62,715 nt of DNA from a virus. The stretch is from positions 1 through 62,715 of the IMG/VR virus record IMGVR_UViG_3300008108_000056, one strand, 5' to 3'. The position numbers and the translations under genes are program-made. The notes under the pieces are model-generated. The model was not told the DNA's origin. It saw only the letters and a program-made list of their open reading frames with translations, and did no database searches. This document shows, in pieces, positions 3,188 through 19,860 of this stretch (position 1 is the stretch's first letter; every line of letters begins with the position of its first letter).

Positions 3188-3875
3188 AGTTTGTTTAGTT
3201 TCGGTGACACCAGATGCAGAAAAGACAATGGCATATATTGCTAGAGTTAGCAACCCTGCGAATCAAGACAACGAAAACTATGCCAAGTTGCTTGCTTATT
3301 GTATTAAGCATAATCATTGGTCTGTTTTTGAACAGTCTACTATGACTCTTGAGATCGAAACGAATCGTGGTATCGCAGCTCAGATTTTGCGTCATAGGTC
3401 CTTCACATATCAAGAATTTTCACAACGATATGCTGATGCTTCTCTTCTAACTGAAGAGATTCCTGTTCCTGAACTTCGTAAGCAGGACACGAAGAATCGT
3501 CAGAACTCTACTGATGATCTTGATCCTGAACTCAAGAGAAGTTTTGAACGTCGCACTAAGCACTTGTTTGCAGATATTATGGATCTGTATGATGATATGC
3601 TTGCCGCAGGAGTGGCAAAGGAATCAGCACGTTTCGTGCTCCCCTTGGCAGTACCAACCAGAATCTATATGACTGGCTCGTGCCGTTCATGGATTCATTA
3701 TATTAATCTTCGTTCTGCTAATGGAACTCAGAAAGAACACATGGACATTGCTGAAGCAGCAAAGAAAGTATTTATCTGTCAGTTCCCTACAGTTGCAGAA
3801 GCACTTGGATGGTGTAATGGTGAGTGTGATTGTAGAGATTGGGAAAATGTTCAACCTTGCATTAGGATAGATTGA
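3180..3875 (+). CDS. thyX: Flavin-dependent thymidylate synthase ThyX
   Basis: This 231-residue enzyme makes dTMP from dUMP using FAD, NADPH and methylene-tetrahydrofolate. The ThyX signature is intact: R71-H-R73, then S81 and R83 in the pattern RHR(x)7SxR. The downstream segment SCRSWIHYINLR matches the substrate-binding region. ThyX is a frequent cyanophage gene that supplies thymidine for phage DNA. It follows small membrane protein genes in the same operon. Confidence 0.96.
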   Translation: MAKVCLVSVTPDAEKTMAYIARVSNPANQDNENYAKLLAYCIKHNHWSVFEQSTMTLEIETNRGIAAQILRHRSFTYQEFSQRYADASLLTEEIPVPELRKQDTKNRQNSTDDLDPELKRSFERRTKHLFADIMDLYDDMLAAGVAKESARFVLPLAVPTRIYMTGSCRSWIHYINLRSANGTQKEHMDIAEAAKKVFICQFPTVAEALGWCNGECDCRDWENVQPCIRID

Positions 3876-3876
3876 T

Positions 3877-4068
3877 ATGTACTACGAATATCTCCATCAA
3901 GAAGGTATGCAAACATGTTGGGTCTATTGTATTATTTTAGACCCAGCACGAAAGCAAGATAAACTTCGTATTAGATATAAACTTGGTACGGAAGAACATG
4001 ATGCTTGGGTGCCAGCAAATAGTGTCAGACTTGTCACTGGGAGTAATGAAATGGAGACATCACAATGA
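3877..4068 (+). CDS. Unrecognised small protein (SH3-like beta pattern)
   Basis: A 63-residue protein starting one base after thyX. It is predicted mostly beta, with a segment resembling a small barrel (RIRYKLGTEEHDAWVPANSVRL). It overlaps the next tiny gene by four bases. Confidence 0.65.
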   Translation: MYYEYLHQEGMQTCWVYCIILDPARKQDKLRIRYKLGTEEHDAWVPANSVRLVTGSNEMETSQ

Positions 4069-4211
4069 ATAATCAAGAAGTAATTCAAATTGCAAAAGAT
4101 TGTGGACTTGTTTATAATAACAACCACGATATTTTGGAGTTCTATCAGAAGATTCGCAAAGAATTAAAAAAAGAGTTCAAAGAAACAACAGAAGTTGTTG
4201 AAACTAAATAA
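4065..4211 (+). CDS. Unrecognised 48-residue helical protein
   Basis: ATG at 4065 overlaps the preceding stop (ATGA) and the frame closes with TAA at 4209-4211. The product is helical and charged, rich in Lys and Glu at its C-terminal half. Its stop overlaps a CTAAATA sequence (4204-4210), a weak late-promoter candidate for the next gene. Confidence 0.6.
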   Translation: MNNQEVIQIAKDCGLVYNNNHDILEFYQKIRKELKKEFKETTEVVETK

Positions 4212-4228
4212 GGTAAGGGAGTGTTACA

Positions 4229-4459
4229 ATGCCTACATATCCAGTAAAGAATCTGAAAACAGGTGAAACAAAAGAATTGTACATGTCAATGGCAGAGTAC
4301 GAATCTTGGAAACTTGAAAATCCAGACTGGGATAAAGATTGGACTCAAGGAATTGGTGGTGTCACTTATGGACAACCAAAACAATCCGATGGATTTAAAG
4401 AAGTTATGAGTAAAGTGCAAAAGGCACACCCCCGAGCAAACCTTAGTAGATTCATCTAG
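4229..4459 (+). CDS. Small conserved protein, possibly a cysteine-free FmdB-like domain
   Basis: A 76-residue protein whose beginning (MPTYPVKNLKTGE) resembles the N terminus of FmdB zinc-ribbon proteins, but it has no cysteines, so a zinc site is not expected. AAGGGAG precedes the ATG. It lies directly upstream of phoH. The FmdB link is a tentative inference from the opening residues. Confidence 0.7.
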   Translation: MPTYPVKNLKTGETKELYMSMAEYESWKLENPDWDKDWTQGIGGVTYGQPKQSDGFKEVMSKVQKAHPRANLSRFI

Positions 4460-4462
4460 ACT

Positions 4463-5227
4463 ATGCCAGTAAAAACTCGCAGGAACAAAACCAACGGAAA
4501 TGGTAACGGCAACGGAATGAGTGCAAAGCAGATGAGAAGGAAGAAACCTATTAACAATGAGCACTTAATTGACATCAAACCTCTAACTGATGGTCAGAAG
4601 AAAGTGTTTGAGTGTTGGGATGAAGGTAAAAACCTTATTCTTCATGGTGCTGCTGGAACAGGGAAAACTTTCGTAAGTCTTTTCCTTGCACTCAGAGATG
4701 TATTAAATCCTAATACACCATACGATAAAATTTATATTGTGCGTTCTTTAGTTCCCACTAGAGAGATTGGTTTTCTCCCTGGAGATCATGAAGATAAATC
4801 AGCACTCTATCAAATTCCATACAAACATATGGTAAAATATATGTTTGAGATGCCAGATGATAATTCTTTTGAGTTATTATATGACAATCTAAGAGGTCAA
4901 GAAACGATTTCATTCTGGAGCACTTCTTATATTCGTGGGGTTACTCTTGACAATTGTATTGTTATTGTTGATGAATTTAGTAACTTGAATTTCCATGAAC
5001 TTGATTCTATGATCACTCGTGTGGGTCAAGATTGTAAGATTGTTTTCTCTGGTGACATTTCTCAGTCTGATTTAATTAAACAGAATGAGAAGAATGGAGT
5101 TCTTGACTTCATGAAAATTCTAGAAACAATGGAAGAGTTCTGCTGTGTAGAATTTGGCATTGAAGATATTGTACGTTCTGGATTAGTTCGTTCATACTTA
5201 ATTAGTAAAATTAATCTTGGTTTTTAA
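4463..5227 (+). CDS. phoH: PhoH-like P-loop ATPase
   Basis: This 254-residue protein has an Asn/Gly- and Lys-rich N-terminal tail, Walker A GAAGTGKT at residues 62-69, a Walker B region (IVIVDEFSN) and a sensor-like FSGDISQSD, matching PhoH ATPases. PhoH is one of the most widespread cyanophage genes. Its role is not settled; links to RNA metabolism or phosphate stress are discussed for the family. It starts three bases after the previous stop. Confidence 0.94.
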   Translation: MPVKTRRNKTNGNGNGNGMSAKQMRRKKPINNEHLIDIKPLTDGQKKVFECWDEGKNLILHGAAGTGKTFVSLFLALRDVLNPNTPYDKIYIVRSLVPTREIGFLPGDHEDKSALYQIPYKHMVKYMFEMPDDNSFELLYDNLRGQETISFWSTSYIRGVTLDNCIVIVDEFSNLNFHELDSMITRVGQDCKIVFSGDISQSDLIKQNEKNGVLDFMKILETMEEFCCVEFGIEDIVRSGLVRSYLISKINLGF

Positions 5228-5229
5228 TT

Positions 5230-10437: not shown

Positions 10438-10869
10438 ATGTCTTATACAGGAAAATATTTGCCATCATATCCCAAAAAATATAAAGGTGACATCACTAAC
10501 ATTATTTATAGGAGTTTATGGGAACGTAAATTCATGGTTTATTGTGATTTGAACGAACATGTACTTGAATGGGCATCTGAAGAAATCATAATCCCATATC
10601 GTTCTCCTGTTGATGGAAAAGTGCATCGTTATTATCCTGACTTTTACGTTAAGGTTAAAAATAATTCTGGCATAAAAGTTTATATTGTTGAGATCAAACC
10701 CAAAAAACAGACTTTAGAACCAAAACCACCTAAGAGAAAAACAAAACAGTATATTAATGAAGTCTTTCAATACACTAGAAATCAAGCAAAGTGGAAAGCA
10801 GCTCGTGAATGGTGTGCAGATAGAAATTATGAATTTAAAGTTTTAACAGAAGTAGAACTAAAGATATGA
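10438..10869 (+). CDS. 4: gp4 head-completion protein
   Basis: A 143-residue protein matching T4 gp4, needed to complete the filled head before tail joining. It has a nuclease-like pattern: YRSLWERKFMVYCDLN, E..I.IPY, HRYYPDFYVKV and VEIKPKKQ (D..ExK). This pattern resembles Tn7 TnsA-type endonucleases. It overlaps the next gene by four bases. Confidence 0.9.
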   Translation: MSYTGKYLPSYPKKYKGDITNIIYRSLWERKFMVYCDLNEHVLEWASEEIIIPYRSPVDGKVHRYYPDFYVKVKNNSGIKVYIVEIKPKKQTLEPKPPKRKTKQYINEVFQYTRNQAKWKAAREWCADRNYEFKVLTEVELKI

Positions 10870-11336: not shown

Positions 11337-12089
11337 ATGGCATATAACAAATTTGATGAATTTGTATCTTATGTTGCTGGAGATAGAAAATGGAATCCAG
11401 CAACAAGTAACTTATATGGAATTGATTTAAACATTCCAAATAGTACTATATTGGATAAAGTCGGTACTAATGCAAAAGACTTAAATCGATCCATAAATTT
11501 ATTGGCAATGGAAGTTACTATTCCAAGTAGACAGCTGACAACGATTGAATCTAGGTCTTTTGGTACTATGATGCGTTATGTCAGTGGAACAAGTTTTTCA
11601 GAGATCACCATTAGTTTCTTAATGACAAAAGATTTATGGGTAAGAGTCTTTTTTGAGAGATGGATGAATTATACAACAGATGATGCCTCTTCATTTGTTA
11701 TGATTCCTTCAGGATATAAGGGTACTATTAGAGTTTCTAAATGGGAAACTGGATCTAATGTAGTATTGAGAAAGAAGGATGATCAAGGACGAGTGATTGG
11801 TTCTACTCGTCTTAAGACAAATACTGGAAACTGGATTATTGAAGGTGCATTTCCATTTAATATCAGCACCATGACTTTAAATAACGAAGAAACCAATCTA
11901 TTAAAGTGTGATGTTTCTTTTTATTATGATCGTTATAGAATGGATAATACAGGTGGGGGTGGAGTAGATGGTCTTTCTGGTGGAGATAAATTCCTTGATG
12001 ATAATAATTCATTGAGCACATATTTAAGTAGTATTAATAGTGTTCTTTCAAATACTGCTGTTGGAACTGGTACTGTCAGTTATGAGTGA
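11337..12089 (+). CDS. Tail-tube-like structural protein (possible gp54/gp19-type tube initiator)
   Basis: A 250-residue beta-rich protein with a central segment (ITISFLMTKDLWVRVFFERWMNY) and a strand pair (WIIEGAFPFNISTMTLNNEETNLLKCDVSFYYDRY) that resemble contractile-tail tube proteins. The C terminus is Gly/Asp-rich and flexible. T4 uses gp54, a gp19 relative, to start the tube on gp48. That role is inferred from fold pattern and neighbours. Confidence 0.65.
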   Translation: MAYNKFDEFVSYVAGDRKWNPATSNLYGIDLNIPNSTILDKVGTNAKDLNRSINLLAMEVTIPSRQLTTIESRSFGTMMRYVSGTSFSEITISFLMTKDLWVRVFFERWMNYTTDDASSFVMIPSGYKGTIRVSKWETGSNVVLRKKDDQGRVIGSTRLKTNTGNWIIEGAFPFNISTMTLNNEETNLLKCDVSFYYDRYRMDNTGGGGVDGLSGGDKFLDDNNSLSTYLSSINSVLSNTAVGTGTVSYE

Positions 12090-12123: not shown

Positions 12124-12840
12124 ATGCCTTTACCTAAATTATCTGTTCCTGAATATGAATTGGAACTACCTTCAACAGGAGAAAAAGTTAAGTATAGACC
12201 ATTCCTAGTTCGTGAAGAGAAAATTTTATTCATGGCAATGGAATCTCAGGATGAAAAGGAAATGGTTTCTTCTGTGAAGAATATTATCAAAAACTGTACT
12301 AATCTTAAGAGAAAAGTTGAAGAACTAGCAACATTTGAAATTGAATACCTCTTTCTTAAGATTCGTGCAAAGTCTGTGGGTGAGACTTCAACATTCATGA
12401 TTACATGCCCTGATGATGGTGAAACTCAAGTGGAAGTGAAGGTAGATCTTGATGATGTTGAATTGGAAATGAATGATAATCACAGCAGAAAAATTCTGCT
12501 AGATGATAATGTAGGTGTCTTGATGAGGTATCCTTCTCTGGATACATTTGTTAAACTAAACTTAACCAATGAAGAAGAACCTTCAATGGATAATATGTTT
12601 GAACTTGCTGCATCTTCTATCGATCAAATTTTTGATGGTGAAGAAGTTTGGGAATGCAAGTCAACACCTAAAAAAGAAATCATGGAATTTCTTGAGAGTA
12701 TGAATAGTGAGCAATTCCAGAAGATTCAATCTTTCTTTGAGACTATGCCAAAACTTAAAAAAGTTTTGGCAGTTAAGAATCCCAAAACAGGAGTTGAGAG
12801 TGAGGTTGTACTTGAGGGTCTAGCAGCTTTTTTCGCATAG
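12124..12840 (+). CDS. 26: gp26 baseplate hub/tail assembly protein, probable frameshift donor
   Basis: A 238-residue acidic protein matching cyanophage gp26 (MPLPKLSVPEYELELPSTG, YRPFLVREEKILFMA). The family sits upstream of the tape measure, where lambda-like phages have tail chaperone gpG. Its last codons contain T-TTT-TTC (12828-12834), a textbook -1 slippery heptamer. Slippage would bypass the TAG at 12838 and continue for 67 codons to 13037, making a fusion of about 304 residues. Confidence 0.88.
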   Translation: MPLPKLSVPEYELELPSTGEKVKYRPFLVREEKILFMAMESQDEKEMVSSVKNIIKNCTNLKRKVEELATFEIEYLFLKIRAKSVGETSTFMITCPDDGETQVEVKVDLDDVELEMNDNHSRKILLDDNVGVLMRYPSLDTFVKLNLTNEEEPSMDNMFELAASSIDQIFDGEEVWECKSTPKKEIMEFLESMNSEQFQKIQSFFETMPKLKKVLAVKNPKTGVESEVVLEGLAAFFA

Positions 12841-12898
12841 CCCTGTTGCATGATAGTTTGGGTAATTATTACAAGACTAATTTTGCCCTCATGCAACA
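12828..12898 (+). promoter_or_regulatory. Programmed -1 ribosomal frameshift signal
   Basis: The slippery heptamer TTTTTTC (12828-12834) is in the correct phase (X XXY YYZ) in the gp26 frame. Nine bases later begins a stem, TGTTGCATGA (12844-12853), pairing perfectly over 10 bp with TCATGCAACA (12889-12898), loop 35 bases. The -1 frame enters the downstream reading frame without a stop. Spacer and stem fit known bacterial frameshift stimulators. Confidence 0.8.
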
Positions 12899-13037
12899 TC
12901 ATAAGTACAGTCTTACAGAACTAGAAGATATGATACCTTGGGAAAGAGACATCTATGTAAGGATGTTGATGAAGTGGTTGAAAGAAGAAGAACAAAGGCA
13001 ACGTTCTCAACAAGCACAAGGTAGAATTTCACTCTAA
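12846..13037 (+). CDS. gp51-like tail assembly domain, probably made as a gp26 fusion
   Basis: The frame is open from the frameshift site to TAA at 13035-13037. It encodes a helical, acidic-then-basic segment (YSLTELEDMIPWERDIYVRM) like small tail-assembly chaperone extensions. There is no ribosome-binding site or ATG at its beginning: only a TTG at 12846 or an internal ATG at 12891 that lies in the stem. The gp51 name is a positional inference. It overlaps the tape-measure ATG. Confidence 0.72.
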   Translation: MHDSLGNYYKTNFALMQHHKYSLTELEDMIPWERDIYVRMLMKWLKEEEQRQRSQQAQGRISL

Positions 13038-16000
13038 TGGCAGAAGTAAAAGTAAGACCATATTTAACTATTCGTCCCACTCCCATCAAAACTGGGGGTG
13101 GGATGTCTGCGTATTACTTTGCTACTGTAAAAGGTATCAATAGAATGGGTGGAGTGGTTGAATCTATAGGTAAACACTTAGAAACAACCAATAAGTTATT
13201 CACATTCAGAAATGAATTTCTTATTCAAAGTCAAGCACAGCGTATCAAACTAGAGCAGAAAGGTATCAAGCTTGATGAACTAGAAGAGAAGAAAGCAGAA
13301 GATAAAAATAGAAAATGGTGGAGAAAATTCTTAGATAAGAAATCAGAAGAGGAATCGGAGAAGCAAACAAAGAAACCAGGAAGTGCTATAGATGCAACTT
13401 CAAAGGTAGTTAAAAAAGCAATATCTCCATTAAAGAAATTCTTTCAGCAATTTGCATCATTATTTGAAGCATTTATTAGATTAACCGTTGTCCCTGCTGT
13501 ATTGGGATGGATTGCTGGTGCGGATAATGATAAGTTAGCACGATTTATAGGTAACATATTAAAGGTATTCAATTTTGTACGAAAACTAGTTGGATTTGGT
13601 ATTGGTACATTATTGGATGGTTTAACAAATTTATTTGGTGGATTTGATAAACTTAAAAGTGGAAACCTATTAGGTGGTCTACAAGGACTACTGGGTGTTG
13701 GACAGTTATTAGCAGGTGTTGCTCTGGTTAAAGGGGCACAGTATATTATGATGCCATGGAAACTAATTGGAGATGTTTCCTGGGTTATGAAATTATTCAC
13801 TGATATGGGTAAAGCCGTAGGTGAAACAGAAGGTGCTGCAAAAAATAAAGACATTGTTGGATATGTAGATAAGAACGGTAATACAATTTCTAAAGAAGAT
13901 TTTGAAAGAGCAAAGAAATCTGCAGCACGAAATGATGCAAAACGTTCTAAAAAACAAGGAAAGGGATGGTCATATAGTGGTGGTCAAGATGCAATAGGTG
14001 ATAGATATAGAGCACAATATGGAAGAAGAAAGAAGAATTTCTTACAGAGAGGTGCTCAGAGAACTCGTATCGGATTCAATCGTGCCACTCGTGGAGTTCG
14101 TGGACAGTTCAAAGCAGCAGGAAACTGGATGCAAGCAAACCCAGCAAAGGGGAATGCTATCTTTTCTGTTGTTGGTGGACTGGTACGTGCTGGTGGTGGT
14201 TTAATGGGTGGTGAGAATGCTGGCCAGGCAGTTGGAGCAGGTCTAGGACAGGCAACAGGGGGTATTGCTGGTTTTGCCCTGGGCAATATGTTACTTCCTG
14301 GTGTAGGAGGTATCATTGGATCTATGCTTGGTTCATTCCTAGGTGAATGGGTTGGTACTAAACTCGGTCCAATCATTGATCCAATCATGAAACCGATTGG
14401 TAATGCATTTAAACTAGGATTTGATATTATTGGAATGGGAATTAGTCCCATCATCAATACATTTGGTGAATTTTTTGGTGCATTAATTGATGGAATAGGA
14501 GCAATATTTCAGTTATGTGGATGGTTAGCAAAGGCAGGAGCAGAGGTTCTTAATTTTGCATGGCAGAACTCCATCTATAAAAAAGCAATTGATGGAATGA
14601 TTTGGGTATGGCAAAATAAAGACAATATAGGTCAAGCAGTTAAAGAAGCATTACTGCAAGGTGCTAAAGGCACACTAGATGCTGTTACCTTTAATGTATT
14701 TGATTTTGATAAGCAGAATAAGAGATTTGCTGGTGGTAAAGTACCTCTGATGGCAGCAGGGGGAATGTTGAAAACTGATAGTCCTGAAGTCATGGGACTA
14801 AAGGTTGCTGGATCTGCACTGATCTCTACTGTTGAAGCAACTCTTAAGAACTTTGGTCTGGTTGGTGAATTCACCAGGATGGCAATGGCATCCGATCTAA
14901 GCAGATTGAAGGGTGCTTTTGGTGCTGGTCCTGCAATTGGATTTGGTGGAGGTAAAATTGCTTCACAAGTTAGAAAACCAACAGATCTAGGTCGGGCACC
15001 AGGAGAAACAGGTGGAGATGGTGCTTTAGTTTCTATTGTTGGTACAAAGGAAGTAAGATTCTTAACAGCACAACCTGATAAATTTACTCCAATGAATGAT
15101 GGGAGTATCAGGGGTTTACTTGCTGATCTCTATAATGGATTAGTTAGTTTGAAAGTCATTGGTGGTGATGTTGTCCCTGGTCCTAATGGAACAACTCCTG
15201 GGCAAGCAGATGCGGCATTGACTGCGGCAGACTTAAAGGCAATTCAAGCATCATCTGCCGATAAGAGAGCAGCCGCACACTTATCAACTTTGGAAGCATC
15301 TGCACCTCAACATGTTGCTGACGTTTATCAAGTTATTCTGAATAGAGCAGCAAAGCAATCAGGTGGTATTCCAGCAGTTATTACTGCAAGGGAACAGTTT
15401 TCACCTTATTCTGCTGCGATTTATGGGTCTAGTGCAGATGGTGCTGCAGCAAAGAAATATGGTGGTTTAGGAGTAACCAAAAAAGAATTATTTGACTTGG
15501 CAGGAAAACCAGATGGTATACAACAATTAACAAAACGTTTTGGTGCAGGAAATCCATCAATTGCTGCTAAAGTATTAGCAGATTTTGAGGCTAATGGTCC
15601 AATGTCTCAAAATGCTAAGAAATTTGTAGGTGGTGCTCAATATTTTATGGGTTATAAGGTTACTTCTGCAGATAGAAGGAGACCTGATGGTGGAAACTTC
15701 TTTAGAGATAAGTATGCAGTTGGTGGAATAGTACCATTTATGGATGGTGGTGGGGAAGTTGATCCTAGAACTGGAGAACCAACTAGTGATAGAATGAGGA
15801 GAAGGAAAAAATATGCTGAGCAATTTAAAAAGTTTGCTGCGGGTGGAGAATTAACTAAGTTAGATTTTACTAAAGGTGCTAAAGCTGCAACTGCTGCAAG
15901 AGGAAGATGTACTGAAGGTGTTATTTTAACTGCAGAAAAAAATAAAGCAAACATTGGTGCCCCTGATGTATACACTAGTAGAGACCCAAATAATCCAAGA

Positions 16001-16768
16001 GGATTGATGTCTCAAGCAGTTGGTAGATTCGGATGGGGATCTATACCTGGTCTTGGAAGAGCAAGACCAATTAAATCTCCATATGGAAATGTTACTGTAA
16101 ATTCTATGTCATGGAGTGAATGGCAAAAGGCAGTTAAAGGTGGAAAAATACCTAGTGGTGCCTTAGTGTTTAGTACAGAAAGGGGATGGGATTGGTCTGG
16201 AGGATCTAGTGGAAACGACTCTGCAATTGCACAATATGGTGGTAAAAAACTATGGAGTGGCCACTGGCAGTATGAATATAATGGTGTGGGTGGTGTATAT
16301 GGATCAGCAACTAAAGAAGTTGTTGCATTAACACATCCAGGTGGAAATATGGCTGGATGGGACGGTTCTTCTCCTGCGGGAGCAGATGGAACTTCCCCAA
16401 CTACTACAACAGTTACTGCTAAGACTTCATTACTTGGTGGTGGAGGAGGGCAGCAGGAAGATGTTGGTACGATGCTTGAAAAAGCATTCAAAGCATTTAG
16501 AGAAGGTTTCAGTGAACCATCTGTTGCAGTAACTCCCGTAGAATCTGGAACTCCATCAAAAGTTCAACCTCAACCATCACCAGATAGAACTAAAGTACAA
16601 AAAACAGTTCAGCAGGGATCAGAAGAATATACATCAAGAGAAGCAACAAAACCTAAAGGTGGAGTTGCTGTAGCAACTATTCCTATTCCTGTTGCTAGCC
16701 AATCCGCACAACCTCAACAAAGAATTGTTGTGAATAGTGCTGGTCCAACTGCGATGGTGTCACCATAA
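13037..16768 (+). CDS. Giant tape-measure-like virion protein with two cell-wall hydrolase domains
   Basis: This 1243-residue protein starts with a charged coiled coil (about 50-115), then hydrophobic helices and Gly-rich segments (about 130-520) typical of tape-measure proteins. Residues about 740-880 look like a SleB-type hydrolase: E753 in STLEASAP, then DVYQVILNRAAK, FSPY and GGAQYFMGY. Residues about 950-1100 resemble a Cys/His amidase-like domain, with C958 in GRCTEGVI and H1076 in SGHWQY. The tail is Pro/Gln-rich. It probably sets tail length and opens peptidoglycan. It follows gp26 and is paralogous to the next gene. Confidence 0.78.
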   Translation: MAEVKVRPYLTIRPTPIKTGGGMSAYYFATVKGINRMGGVVESIGKHLETTNKLFTFRNEFLIQSQAQRIKLEQKGIKLDELEEKKAEDKNRKWWRKFLDKKSEEESEKQTKKPGSAIDATSKVVKKAISPLKKFFQQFASLFEAFIRLTVVPAVLGWIAGADNDKLARFIGNILKVFNFVRKLVGFGIGTLLDGLTNLFGGFDKLKSGNLLGGLQGLLGVGQLLAGVALVKGAQYIMMPWKLIGDVSWVMKLFTDMGKAVGETEGAAKNKDIVGYVDKNGNTISKEDFERAKKSAARNDAKRSKKQGKGWSYSGGQDAIGDRYRAQYGRRKKNFLQRGAQRTRIGFNRATRGVRGQFKAAGNWMQANPAKGNAIFSVVGGLVRAGGGLMGGENAGQAVGAGLGQATGGIAGFALGNMLLPGVGGIIGSMLGSFLGEWVGTKLGPIIDPIMKPIGNAFKLGFDIIGMGISPIINTFGEFFGALIDGIGAIFQLCGWLAKAGAEVLNFAWQNSIYKKAIDGMIWVWQNKDNIGQAVKEALLQGAKGTLDAVTFNVFDFDKQNKRFAGGKVPLMAAGGMLKTDSPEVMGLKVAGSALISTVEATLKNFGLVGEFTRMAMASDLSRLKGAFGAGPAIGFGGGKIASQVRKPTDLGRAPGETGGDGALVSIVGTKEVRFLTAQPDKFTPMNDGSIRGLLADLYNGLVSLKVIGGDVVPGPNGTTPGQADAALTAADLKAIQASSADKRAAAHLSTLEASAPQHVADVYQVILNRAAKQSGGIPAVITAREQFSPYSAAIYGSSADGAAAKKYGGLGVTKKELFDLAGKPDGIQQLTKRFGAGNPSIAAKVLADFEANGPMSQNAKKFVGGAQYFMGYKVTSADRRRPDGGNFFRDKYAVGGIVPFMDGGGEVDPRTGEPTSDRMRRRKKYAEQFKKFAAGGELTKLDFTKGAKAATAARGRCTEGVILTAEKNKANIGAPDVYTSRDPNNPRGLMSQAVGRFGWGSIPGLGRARPIKSPYGNVTVNSMSWSEWQKAVKGGKIPSGALVFSTERGWDWSGGSSGNDSAIAQYGGKKLWSGHWQYEYNGVGGVYGSATKEVVALTHPGGNMAGWDGSSPAGADGTSPTTTTVTAKTSLLGGGGGQQEDVGTMLEKAFKAFREGFSEPSVAVTPVESGTPSKVQPQPSPDRTKVQKTVQQGSEEYTSREATKPKGGVAVATIPIPVASQSAQPQQRIVVNSAGPTAMVSP

Positions 16769-16791: not shown

Positions 16792-19700
16792 ATGGCAGAA
16801 CCAATTCAAAGACCACCTAAACCAAAACTTTATAAGTTCGTTACTGTACCAAGAGTAGCAGCAACTGGTGGTGCAACAATAAGAGTTGGGGGTTCAACTA
16901 TCGCTGGAGGTGCTGGTAATTCTGGTGCATCTGTAATCAAGGCAATGAATAGTCTTGGTGCTACGATTAACAGTATTGCAATTATTACCGAATCTATTGC
17001 CAAACAAACATCAAGAACCATTGCTACTGAGATTAGGCAGCAAAGTGAGTTAGTAAGAAGGCAAGAAAAATTAAGAAAAGAGAAGATAAAAAGAGACAGA
17101 GAAAAAGAAGATACTAAAAGAAAAAAAGCACAAAGAGATAAAGATGCGGATGCAGAAAAGAAGTCAGAAGGATTAGGTAAATTCTTTAAGACTTTTACTA
17201 AAATGACAACTGCCGCAGCAGGTAGTTTCTTTGCAGGGATTGCTCAATTATTTGAAGCAATCTTCAGGGGTTTAGTAGTTTATTCTGTATTAGATTGGTT
17301 ATCAAAACCTGGAAATATTGGCAAGTTACAGGTTCTAATCAAAGGTTTTATTGGAATATTCAGAGTATTCAAACGTCTGATTGATTTTGGTGTCTCCAGT
17401 ATGCTGGAGGGATTAGTTAAGATAATAGACAATCCAATATCCTTTAAAGGATTATTCGGATTAGTTCAGTTTATGGTGGGATCTGCTGTCTTATTCAAGG
17501 CACTATCCTGGATTAAAAACCCTGCTAAACTAGCAGAAGATTTATTTAGTGTAATGAAATTCCTTGCAAAAGGAATTATAAACTTGAAGAAAGGTGTTGG
17601 TATATACGGTAAGATTAAAAAGTTTGCTGGCACCAGAGCAGGGAAGTTTGCTATTGCTGGTGGTGTTGGTGTTGGTGCTGGAGTGGGTTCTGCTCTGCTT
17701 GGAGGAACCGTTGAGGAAGCAGTTGGAACTGGCATTGGAGCAGGTGCAGGAGCAATTGCTGGAGAGGCACTAGGGACTAAACTCGGGGGTGGTGTTGGAG
17801 GTGAGGTAGGTAGAGCAGCAGGCACTTTAGTTGGTGGTCTACTTGGTGGACAGGTAGGAAAAGCACTCAAACCAGTTACTGATGCTATTGGTAGATTTTT
17901 CAAATTAGTTGGTGATATTTTAAAACCAGCAATTGACTTTGTTGCCAACATTGGAAAAGAGTTTTTCAGTGCTGTTGGTGATTTAATTCAAGCAGTTGTT
18001 AGTTTTATTGAACCACACAAAGAAACTTTAGGTGCAATTGCAAAAGTATCTCTTGTTGTTGCATTTGGACCACTGATTGCGTTAATGAAAGCAATCACTT
18101 GGGTCATTCGTTTATTTGTTCCCAAAGGAAAAGATACTGAAAATGGTTCTGCGGCTGCACCTAAGAGATCTTTTGGTGGGAAGGTTGTAGTTCCACAAAT
18201 GGCAGTTGGTGGACCTTTAGTTGGACCTACAACAGATTTTGTTGATCCCATTACATCTAGATTGAAGCAGGCATTACAAGATGCAATGCTACTACCATTC
18301 AGAGCAGTTGGTACAGGTTTAGTCAGTGCATTTGGATTGATTGGTAGTATTTTTGGTGCATTTCTACCTGGTCCAATGCAAGCATTCTTAGGTGGAGTAT
18401 TGGCACCTATTGCAAGTGTATTTGGTGTACCCAACTCAGTATTCAGGAGAATTACTGGTATTGCAATGAAGGGGGTTAGTGGTGTTGCTGGTGCAGTTGC
18501 TGAAGGTGCTGGTGGTTTATTAGAAAAGTTAATGGGTGGTGACAATGAAACTAGTGTTACAGGAATTCTTAAAAAGATTCTTGGAGCAATGGTTAAATTG
18601 CATGAGCAGAACAATGGAACACCACCAGGAAAAGCAATTGGTGGTGTAGTTCCTCAGGCAGCACGTGGAGGATGGATTTCTGGTCCTATGTCTGGTTATC
18701 CAGTTTCATTAGATGGTGGACGATCAACAGCATTTATTGGGCATGGGACAGAGTGGGTAGGATTTAAGAATCGTGCAGCAGGTGGTGGAGCAGGATCTGC
18801 ATTTGTTGTTCCATTCCATACACCAGCAACAGTTAGAACACCAAGTCTAACAAGTATGAGAATGAATCAGGCACGTGCTGGTGGTTATGCCATGCCAAGG
18901 TCTGTTGGTGGAATAGTTCCAAAGAAAGTAAATCTTCCACTATTTGCTGAGGGTGGAAAGTTTGATCCTTATGAATATGATAAAGGTATGAAATCTTCAT
19001 ACCACATCACTAATCCTGGAAATAGTGGTAAAACATTTGTTGTTGGATATACAGTAAATGATGCGGAAGTTACTATCAAACAAGTTAATAAACTAGTAGA
19101 AAAGGGTAATTTGGTTTCACCAGATAAATTAACTGGAGTTAAACCAGGATCTGATGAATGGAAAACGGTAATGGGATCTGCCGAGACTGTGAAGTATTTC
19201 AAAAATCATGCAGTTCCTGCAATAAAAGCAAGCAAACTAAAAATTAAAGTAGATCCAAAAGCAGACATATATTATGGTTACAAGCAGGCATATAATACAA
19301 CGTATGATAAATGGAAGTCTCAAGGTGCAGATGAACAAACTGCAAGAAATTATGCAAATGCAGCAGCTCGTGAATTTGCCATTGCTAAGAATGGTGCTTC
19401 TAGATTACCTGGAACAAAGGGTGGTTTAGATGCAAAATTAGCAGATGTTCAAGTTGCTGGTAGTACAGCAGCAGAAACAACTTCACCTGCAGCAAGCACT
19501 ACAGCAACAGAAACAGATATTGGTTCACAACTTGCAAAAGCATTTAGTGACTATAGATCTGCTTTTGGTATGAATGAAACCTCAGGTGATAGTATAGATA
19601 AACAGTCAGGTAAAACCAAGGACGCACAGGAGGAAGCAACTAAAGCACGATTACAGGAAGAGTCATCTAAGATTTCTGCTGCTGCTTCACAATTGGCAAC

Positions 19701-19860
19701 GAGTAGTTCTAAGACGCAAAAACCACCAACTGCACCACCAACGGTAGTAAATCCATCTGGAAATGGTGCAAAACCAACTGCAGATATCAATCCTTTCTTA
19801 AGATCTAAGTTTGGACTAATTGCACAAACTGCATTCGACCCATCATTAACTCTATTCTAA
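16792..19860 (+). CDS. Second tape-measure-like virion protein
   Basis: A 1022-residue protein built like its upstream neighbour: a charged coiled coil (about 75-125), an LFEAIFRGLVVYSVLDWL segment matching LFEAFIRLTVVPAVLGWI upstream, then Gly/Ala-rich hydrophobic stretches (about 280-360). It lacks the SleB-like and Cys/His hydrolase parts; its C-terminal third is Ala/Thr/Ser-rich. It could be a second tape measure, a hub plug or an ejected protein. Confidence 0.75.
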   Translation: MAEPIQRPPKPKLYKFVTVPRVAATGGATIRVGGSTIAGGAGNSGASVIKAMNSLGATINSIAIITESIAKQTSRTIATEIRQQSELVRRQEKLRKEKIKRDREKEDTKRKKAQRDKDADAEKKSEGLGKFFKTFTKMTTAAAGSFFAGIAQLFEAIFRGLVVYSVLDWLSKPGNIGKLQVLIKGFIGIFRVFKRLIDFGVSSMLEGLVKIIDNPISFKGLFGLVQFMVGSAVLFKALSWIKNPAKLAEDLFSVMKFLAKGIINLKKGVGIYGKIKKFAGTRAGKFAIAGGVGVGAGVGSALLGGTVEEAVGTGIGAGAGAIAGEALGTKLGGGVGGEVGRAAGTLVGGLLGGQVGKALKPVTDAIGRFFKLVGDILKPAIDFVANIGKEFFSAVGDLIQAVVSFIEPHKETLGAIAKVSLVVAFGPLIALMKAITWVIRLFVPKGKDTENGSAAAPKRSFGGKVVVPQMAVGGPLVGPTTDFVDPITSRLKQALQDAMLLPFRAVGTGLVSAFGLIGSIFGAFLPGPMQAFLGGVLAPIASVFGVPNSVFRRITGIAMKGVSGVAGAVAEGAGGLLEKLMGGDNETSVTGILKKILGAMVKLHEQNNGTPPGKAIGGVVPQAARGGWISGPMSGYPVSLDGGRSTAFIGHGTEWVGFKNRAAGGGAGSAFVVPFHTPATVRTPSLTSMRMNQARAGGYAMPRSVGGIVPKKVNLPLFAEGGKFDPYEYDKGMKSSYHITNPGNSGKTFVVGYTVNDAEVTIKQVNKLVEKGNLVSPDKLTGVKPGSDEWKTVMGSAETVKYFKNHAVPAIKASKLKIKVDPKADIYYGYKQAYNTTYDKWKSQGADEQTARNYANAAAREFAIAKNGASRLPGTKGGLDAKLADVQVAGSTAAETTSPAASTTATETDIGSQLAKAFSDYRSAFGMNETSGDSIDKQSGKTKDAQEEATKARLQEESSKISAAASQLATSSSKTQKPPTAPPTVVNPSGNGAKPTADINPFLRSKFGLIAQTAFDPSLTLF

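Follow-up and report, generated by a model that had tools for sequence, protein, structure and literature searches.

The gp26/gp51-like gene pair of this virus is very probably a single gene from which two tail assembly chaperones are made by programmed −1 ribosomal frameshifting. The pair lies in the window, the whole 62.7-kb partial virus record that was analysed. A frameshift joining gp26 to a gp51-like domain had been proposed in the initial annotation, and the proposal has gained support from a heptamer with fixed synonymous sites that is invariant at 227 of 227 related junctions, and from −1-frame codons that are under purifying selection although, in half of the relatives, they precede every possible start.

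Most ribosomes would terminate at the TAG at 12838 to give the 238-residue gp26 (TAC-N), while a fraction would slip at U_UUU_UUC, where tRNA-Phe in both the P and A sites could re-pair on TTT TTT. Slippage would be aided by an internal Shine-Dalgarno contact upstream and a hairpin downstream, and the slipped ribosomes would read 67 more codons to produce a 304-residue long form (TAC-NC). By analogy with gpG and gpGT of phage lambda, short molecules in large number, together with a few long ones, would coat the tape-measure protein encoded by the next ORF, with the extension recruiting tail-tube subunits. We infer the slippage itself, its efficiency and the chaperone role from sequence.

Organisation of the junction

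The 3′ end of gp26 reads GCA GCT TTT TTC GCA TAG, such that T(12828) TTT TTC falls in the X_XXY_YYZ phase of the gene, three codons ahead of its stop (Table 1). This bears out the initial annotation, which had placed the heptamer in phase for −1 slippage. Also as proposed, the −1 frame (CGC ATA GCC CTG ...) runs past the gp26 stop into the frame at 12846–13037, being open from 12834 to 13034 and closing with TAA at 13035–13037. The predicted fusion unites gp26 residues 1–237 with 67 further residues, matching the earlier estimate of about 304 residues beside the 238 of gp26; this GT-like long chaperone would contain the junction peptide ..LAAFFRIALLHDSL... Its stop shares one base with the ATG of the next ORF, which starts at 13037 (TAATGG).

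The downstream frame had been described as having neither an ATG at its start nor a ribosome site, and this is the case. There is no ATG before extension codon 20, the first start-like codon is TTG at 12846, and a GAGGG some 27 nt upstream is too distant to act as its ribosome site. In-phase T_TTT_TTN occurs eight times in all window ORFs of at least 100 codons, non-genic ORFs included, but only the copy at 12828–12834 adjoins a stop; a chance origin of this copy is excluded because the heptamer is conserved among relatives.

Table 1. Features of the gp26 junction and its flanks (window coordinates)
Feature	Position	Strand	Basis
Upstream tail-tube-type protein (gp54/tail tube)	11337–12089	+	phrog_45 tail tube, 4e-37
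gp26, predicted short tail assembly chaperone (TAC-N, G-like), 238 aa	12124–12840	+	PF12322, phrog_150, AlphaFold2 model
Internal Shine-Dalgarno-like GAGGG, 9 nt before heptamer; probable 5′ frameshift stimulator	12814–12818	+	Anti-SD energy, codon usage
Slippery heptamer T_TTT_TTC	12828–12834	+	Sequence; in-phase TTTTTTN at 227/227 distinct junctions
Predicted −1-frame extension, 67 codons and stop	12834–13037	+	phrog_634, 2e-31; phrog_150 positions 238–281
gp26 zero-frame stop TAG, 3 nt past heptamer	12838–12840	+	Sequence
Hairpin 5′ arm TGTTGCATGA (10 bp)	12844–12853	+	z = −4.3 vs synonymous recoding
Hairpin 3′ arm TCATGCAACA	12889–12898	+	Folding of window sequence
Downstream ORF, 1243 aa, probable tape-measure/baseplate-hub length protein	13037–16768	+	PHROG match

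Conservation of the slippery heptamer

Junctions were gathered from two sources: annotated phage records, and IMG/VR searched with protein queries (gp26, and the extension alone) that leave the heptamer unconstrained. Removal of identical sequences left 229 distinct junctions, a set gathered by similarity to the extension; T4 and phiAS4 are the two omitted from the count of 227, and three divergent vibriophages lacking the heptamer fall outside the set. Outside T4 and phiAS4, all 227 distinct junctions contain an in-phase TTTTTTN, which in 226 of them occupies the same codon, exactly −6 nt from the start of the domain. The seventh base is C in 168, T in 36, A in 21 and G in 2. The T run is 6 to 8 long, with exactly 6 T in 191 junctions, and the zero-frame stop follows the heptamer by 0–27 nt, most often by 3 nt (192 of 227).

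Among 163 representatives, defined as junctions below 85% identity, the codon preceding the Phe-Phe pair always ends in T (AGT, AAT, GAT, TCT or GCT). The first Phe is TTT in every case, even though TTC accounts for 36% of the Phe codons in these genes. As an internal control, Phe-Phe elsewhere in the same genes forms the heptamer in 6 of 129 cases. Because the sequences are related, the formal probabilities of 10^-39 and 10^-31 should not be read at face value, but the internal control draws on the same genomes.

Named phages with the heptamer infect Synechococcus/Prochlorococcus, Pelagibacter, Methylophilales, Vibrio (KVP40), Aeromonas, Cronobacter, Stenotrophomonas, Pseudomonas, Rhizobium/Sinorhizobium and Desulfovibrio. 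In the last of these, phage 7757, the pair with TTTTTTC is unannotated (about 1780–1960 of the compared locus), and its presence widens the system beyond the usual host groups of T4-like phages. In phiM9 and RHph_I46 the heptamer is TTTTTTG with a TGATG overlap, placing Leu rather than a second Phe in the A site.

These data bear on two explanations that do not involve ribosomal slippage. One is a sequencing error or a pseudogene, in which a single long gene has been disrupted; a one-base change would indeed join the frames. This is refuted by the recurrence of the arrangement at 227 distinct junctions, which come from assemblies and isolates independent of one another, and by purifying selection on both frames; its probability is negligible. 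The other is slippage of RNA polymerase on the T run, yielding mixed mRNAs. The site is a run of 6 to 8 T, but those 191 junctions offer only six, against the runs of about nine cited for bacteria (PMC5009743). Moreover, the T run keeps a constant phase relative to the codons, and ribosome-specific stimulators (the SD-like element and a 3′ structure) are selected, making it very improbable that the polymerase changes the frame.

Selection on the −1 frame

The stretch from the heptamer to −1 codon 17 holds no ATG, GTG or TTG in 78 of the 163 representatives. Within these start-less sequences, HDSLxNYYKTNF in the extension is conserved at the protein level while third codon positions vary, and the mean entropy of −1 codons 5–18 is 0.80, 0.59 and 1.34 at positions 1, 2 and 3, respectively. 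Computation thus places both reading frames under purifying selection. An ordinary separate start cannot explain conservation of the −1 frame, since these sequences have none, whereas frameshifting can.

It is accordingly very unlikely that the gp51-like frame is a small gene of its own, expressed by termination-reinitiation (translational coupling) at the gp26 stop from TTG 12846 or another start. Depositors do annotate it as its own CDS, a stop/ATG overlap is present in KVP40, phiM9, YB07, SD25, K452 and 144E46.1, and 30S subunits could be held back by the SD-like GAGGG close to the end of the gene (PMC5009743). Nevertheless, −1 codons 1–17 are conserved as protein even in the start-less representatives, and reinitiation would leave the synonymous positions of the heptamer free to vary when they are in fact invariant. 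Furthermore, in T4 the domain occurs solely within a gp26-type protein.

Upstream Shine-Dalgarno-like element

The GAGGG ahead of the heptamer was absent from the initial annotation. Across the 163 representatives, the mean anti-SD duplex energy at this place is −6.35 kcal/mol, compared with −0.4 to −2.1 at five control places. Codon choice points the same way: of 110 Glu codons before Gly at the element, 63 are GAG, compared with a gene-wide share of 27.6% (p = 7e-11), while GGG is about three times commoner for its Gly than elsewhere. The element, which by computation is under selection, lies too far from most possible starts to serve as their ribosome site. Together with the structure 3′ of the heptamer, it would stimulate slippage.

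RNA structure 3′ of the heptamer

The perfect 10-bp stem that had been noted nine bases after the heptamer is present, formed by the two arms in Table 1, and an inner helix within its loop pairs GGGTAA (12860–12865) with TTGCCC (12883–12888). The whole hairpin is predicted at −19.9 kcal/mol, with z = −2.7 against dinucleotide shuffles and −4.3 when the −1 frame is recoded with synonymous codons. Among the relatives, the 66 nt after the heptamer have a mean z of −1.58 against synonymous recodings, with 41% below −2; control stretches have means of −0.2 to −0.6, with 7–15% below −2.

Different lineages form different helices: TGTTGCATGA/TCATGCAACA in the window type, GCGTTAATGCA/TGCATTAATGC in a sister group, and GCTGAGTCA/TGATTCAGC or short local hairpins in others. 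Helices within single lineages are strong, of 8–13 bp with a spacer mostly of 3–9 nt. In the clade of the window, eight of the ten stem pairs are invariant and one pair is broken in four of eight sequences.

A universal stem was sought in three registers (sums 86, 83 and 78) and in clade alignments, and rejected, no register being common to all lineages. The stem is described as lineage-specific because no register is conserved throughout and compensatory changes are few. The initial annotation had suggested that the heptamer, the −1 phase and the stem pairing be compared across relatives; the first two are kept at every one of the 227 junctions, but the pairing is not shared. Computation indicates overall selection for RNA structure after the heptamer, in lineage-specific form and with weak covariation, and it is plausible that the specific 10-bp stem of the window acts as a stimulator.

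Protein identity and comparison with T4

gp26 matches PF12322 (T4_baseplate, 8.5e-73) and phrog_150 (4.1e-79), while the extension matches phrog_634 (2e-31) and the last 44 positions of phrog_150 (238–281). T4 gp26 consists of PF12322 without the extension; T4 gp51 has PF12322 and the phrog_634 extension in one frame, as does phiAS4 gp51. These matches identify the downstream ORF as the C-terminal domain of T4 gp51, the N-terminal part of which is a gp26-type domain. The relation to gp51 made in the initial annotation therefore holds, but it is confined to that C-terminal domain.

Since T4 gp51 is a gp26-type domain plus the extension, each form, short or long, has its own gene in T4, the two genes being paralogous; here the same pair appears to come from one gene and a frameshift. 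The T4-type arrangement was not encountered in the window, where one gp26-type ORF is followed by a −1-frame extension and phrog_634 has a single match in the partial record. T4 genes 26 and 51 lie on opposite strands (3806–4429 and 4480–5229 of the compared locus). T4 gp26 ends ...GLKEFFELL, in which a vestigial GLKEFF motif survives without the heptamer because its Phe pair is coded TTC TTT.

No sequence homologue of gp26 was found in the PDB. The AlphaFold2 model of gp26 has a pLDDT of 84.9, and in a Foldseek search of 350,542 chains the HK97 TAC (2OB9) ranked third and sixth, below significance (E 0.86–1.6, best probability 0.54, TM 0.20 by query and 0.40 by target). In a viral structure library the model matches other gp26/baseplate-hub chaperone proteins.

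Gene neighbourhood

gp26 and its extension are placed between a tail-tube-type ORF and a TMP-like ORF, as are chaperones of the gpG/gpGT type, and the order tail tube, gp26, extension, TMP-like ORF resembles V-G-T-H of lambda. In Rhizobium phage RHph_I1_18 a gene shortly beyond the pair, on its downstream side, is annotated 'tail tape measure protein'. Scans of this region for promoters and terminators gave nothing above chance, and no separate promoter for the downstream ORF.

The ORFs at 13037–16768 and 16792–19860 are paralogous in their N-terminal region (28% identity over 228 aa) and match tape-measure/'endolysin' PHROGs, forming a duplicated tape-measure-like pair directly after the chaperone. 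Further upstream, the gp4-like head closure ORF at 10438–10869 also matches the TnsA-like endonuclease N-terminal domain PF08722 (1.2e-23).

Exceptions and evolution

KVP40, phiM9 and YB07 carry both the heptamer and the stop/ATG overlap, and so look intermediate. Vibriophages SD25, K452 and 144E46.1 have the gp26/extension pair (1492–2420, 1402–2405 and 1666–2567 of the compared loci, respectively) with a TAATG overlap instead of the heptamer. These three form one nested clade in the gp26 tree, in which frameshifting may have given way to coupled reinitiation or the heptamer to a different slippery motif. SD25 carries GTTTTTC, another slippery-type motif, and the records of two of the three bear the label Ackermannviridae. 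Homologues with a start and without the heptamer, which the initial annotation had set against its own proposal, were thus found only in this divergent clade; the other 227 junctions all keep the heptamer.

The Straboviridae, too, include phages with frameshift signals, namely KVP40, Aeromonas phages 65 and Ah1, and Cronobacter phage S13. This suggests a derived origin for the two-gene state, but support in the gp26 tree is weak and the tree is too divergent for a firm root. Frameshifting with U_UUU_UUN and an SD-like stimulator is probably the ancestral and majority route across the T4 superfamily, with T4 an exception that would have arisen through duplication, fusion and loss of the heptamer.

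Relation to known systems

Frameshifted tail chaperones are a classical feature of phages. Xu, Hendrix and Duda reportedly described in 2004 how the tail assembly chaperones of long-tailed phages, such as lambda gpG/gpGT, are produced by −1 frameshifting. The present locus shares with lambda a short ORF, a slippery heptamer near its stop, a −1 extension, flanking tail-tube and tape-measure-like genes and two predicted products with a common N-terminal part. It differs in that its protein belongs by sequence to the PF12322 (T4 gp26) family and not to lambda G, and in its U_UUU_UUC heptamer and strongly selected upstream SD-like element. With T4 gp26/gp51 it has in common the PF12322 and phrog_634 domains, which T4 distributes over two genes on opposite strands. 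A 2016 review described tail chaperone frameshifting as conserved among long-tailed phages 'except T4' (PMC5009743).

Two other systems are similar. The E. coli dnaX −1 cassette also combines a homopolymeric heptamer with an internal SD upstream and a stem-loop downstream (PMC5009743), although its heptamer is poly-A rather than poly-T and its frameshift product is the shorter one. At the TAC locus of Pakpunavirus Adele and the Vandenendeviridae, which belong to another phage family and use another slippery motif, GTTTTT, a conserved −1 continuation close to where the TAC gene ends is likewise mis-annotated as a separate hypothetical gene (PMC12846349).

PMC10885494 and PMC12846349 credit Vladimirov, Gautam and Davidson (Virology 2022) with identifying the TAC genes of T4-like phages, and so the principle of frameshifting in these phages is probably on record. 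Some T4-like phages are said there to have a short gene and a longer fusion gene in place of a frameshift (PMC10885494), and poly-T is given as a known −1 signal in their TAC-N genes (PMC12846349). The initial annotation knew of no description in T4-like cyanophages. A search for frameshifting in Kyanoviridae and cyanophages found nothing specific, but for T4-like phages there is this prior art. Not found described in the literature were the breadth of the system, the selected SD-like element, the variable hairpins and an explanation of the 'truncated gp51' of cyanophages (PMC3037559). The junctions of relatives are usually mis-annotated as two separate genes: among the annotated records inspected there is not one in which the frames are joined, and several lack any annotation of the extension.

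T4 gp51 is needed for assembly and is absent from the virion (PMC3004832), a behaviour that a chaperone role would fit. Frameshifting would remove the puzzle of the truncated gp51 of cyanophages and provide a counterpart to the two-gene arrangement of T4, and it makes the ratio of short to long chaperone testable in abundant marine phages.
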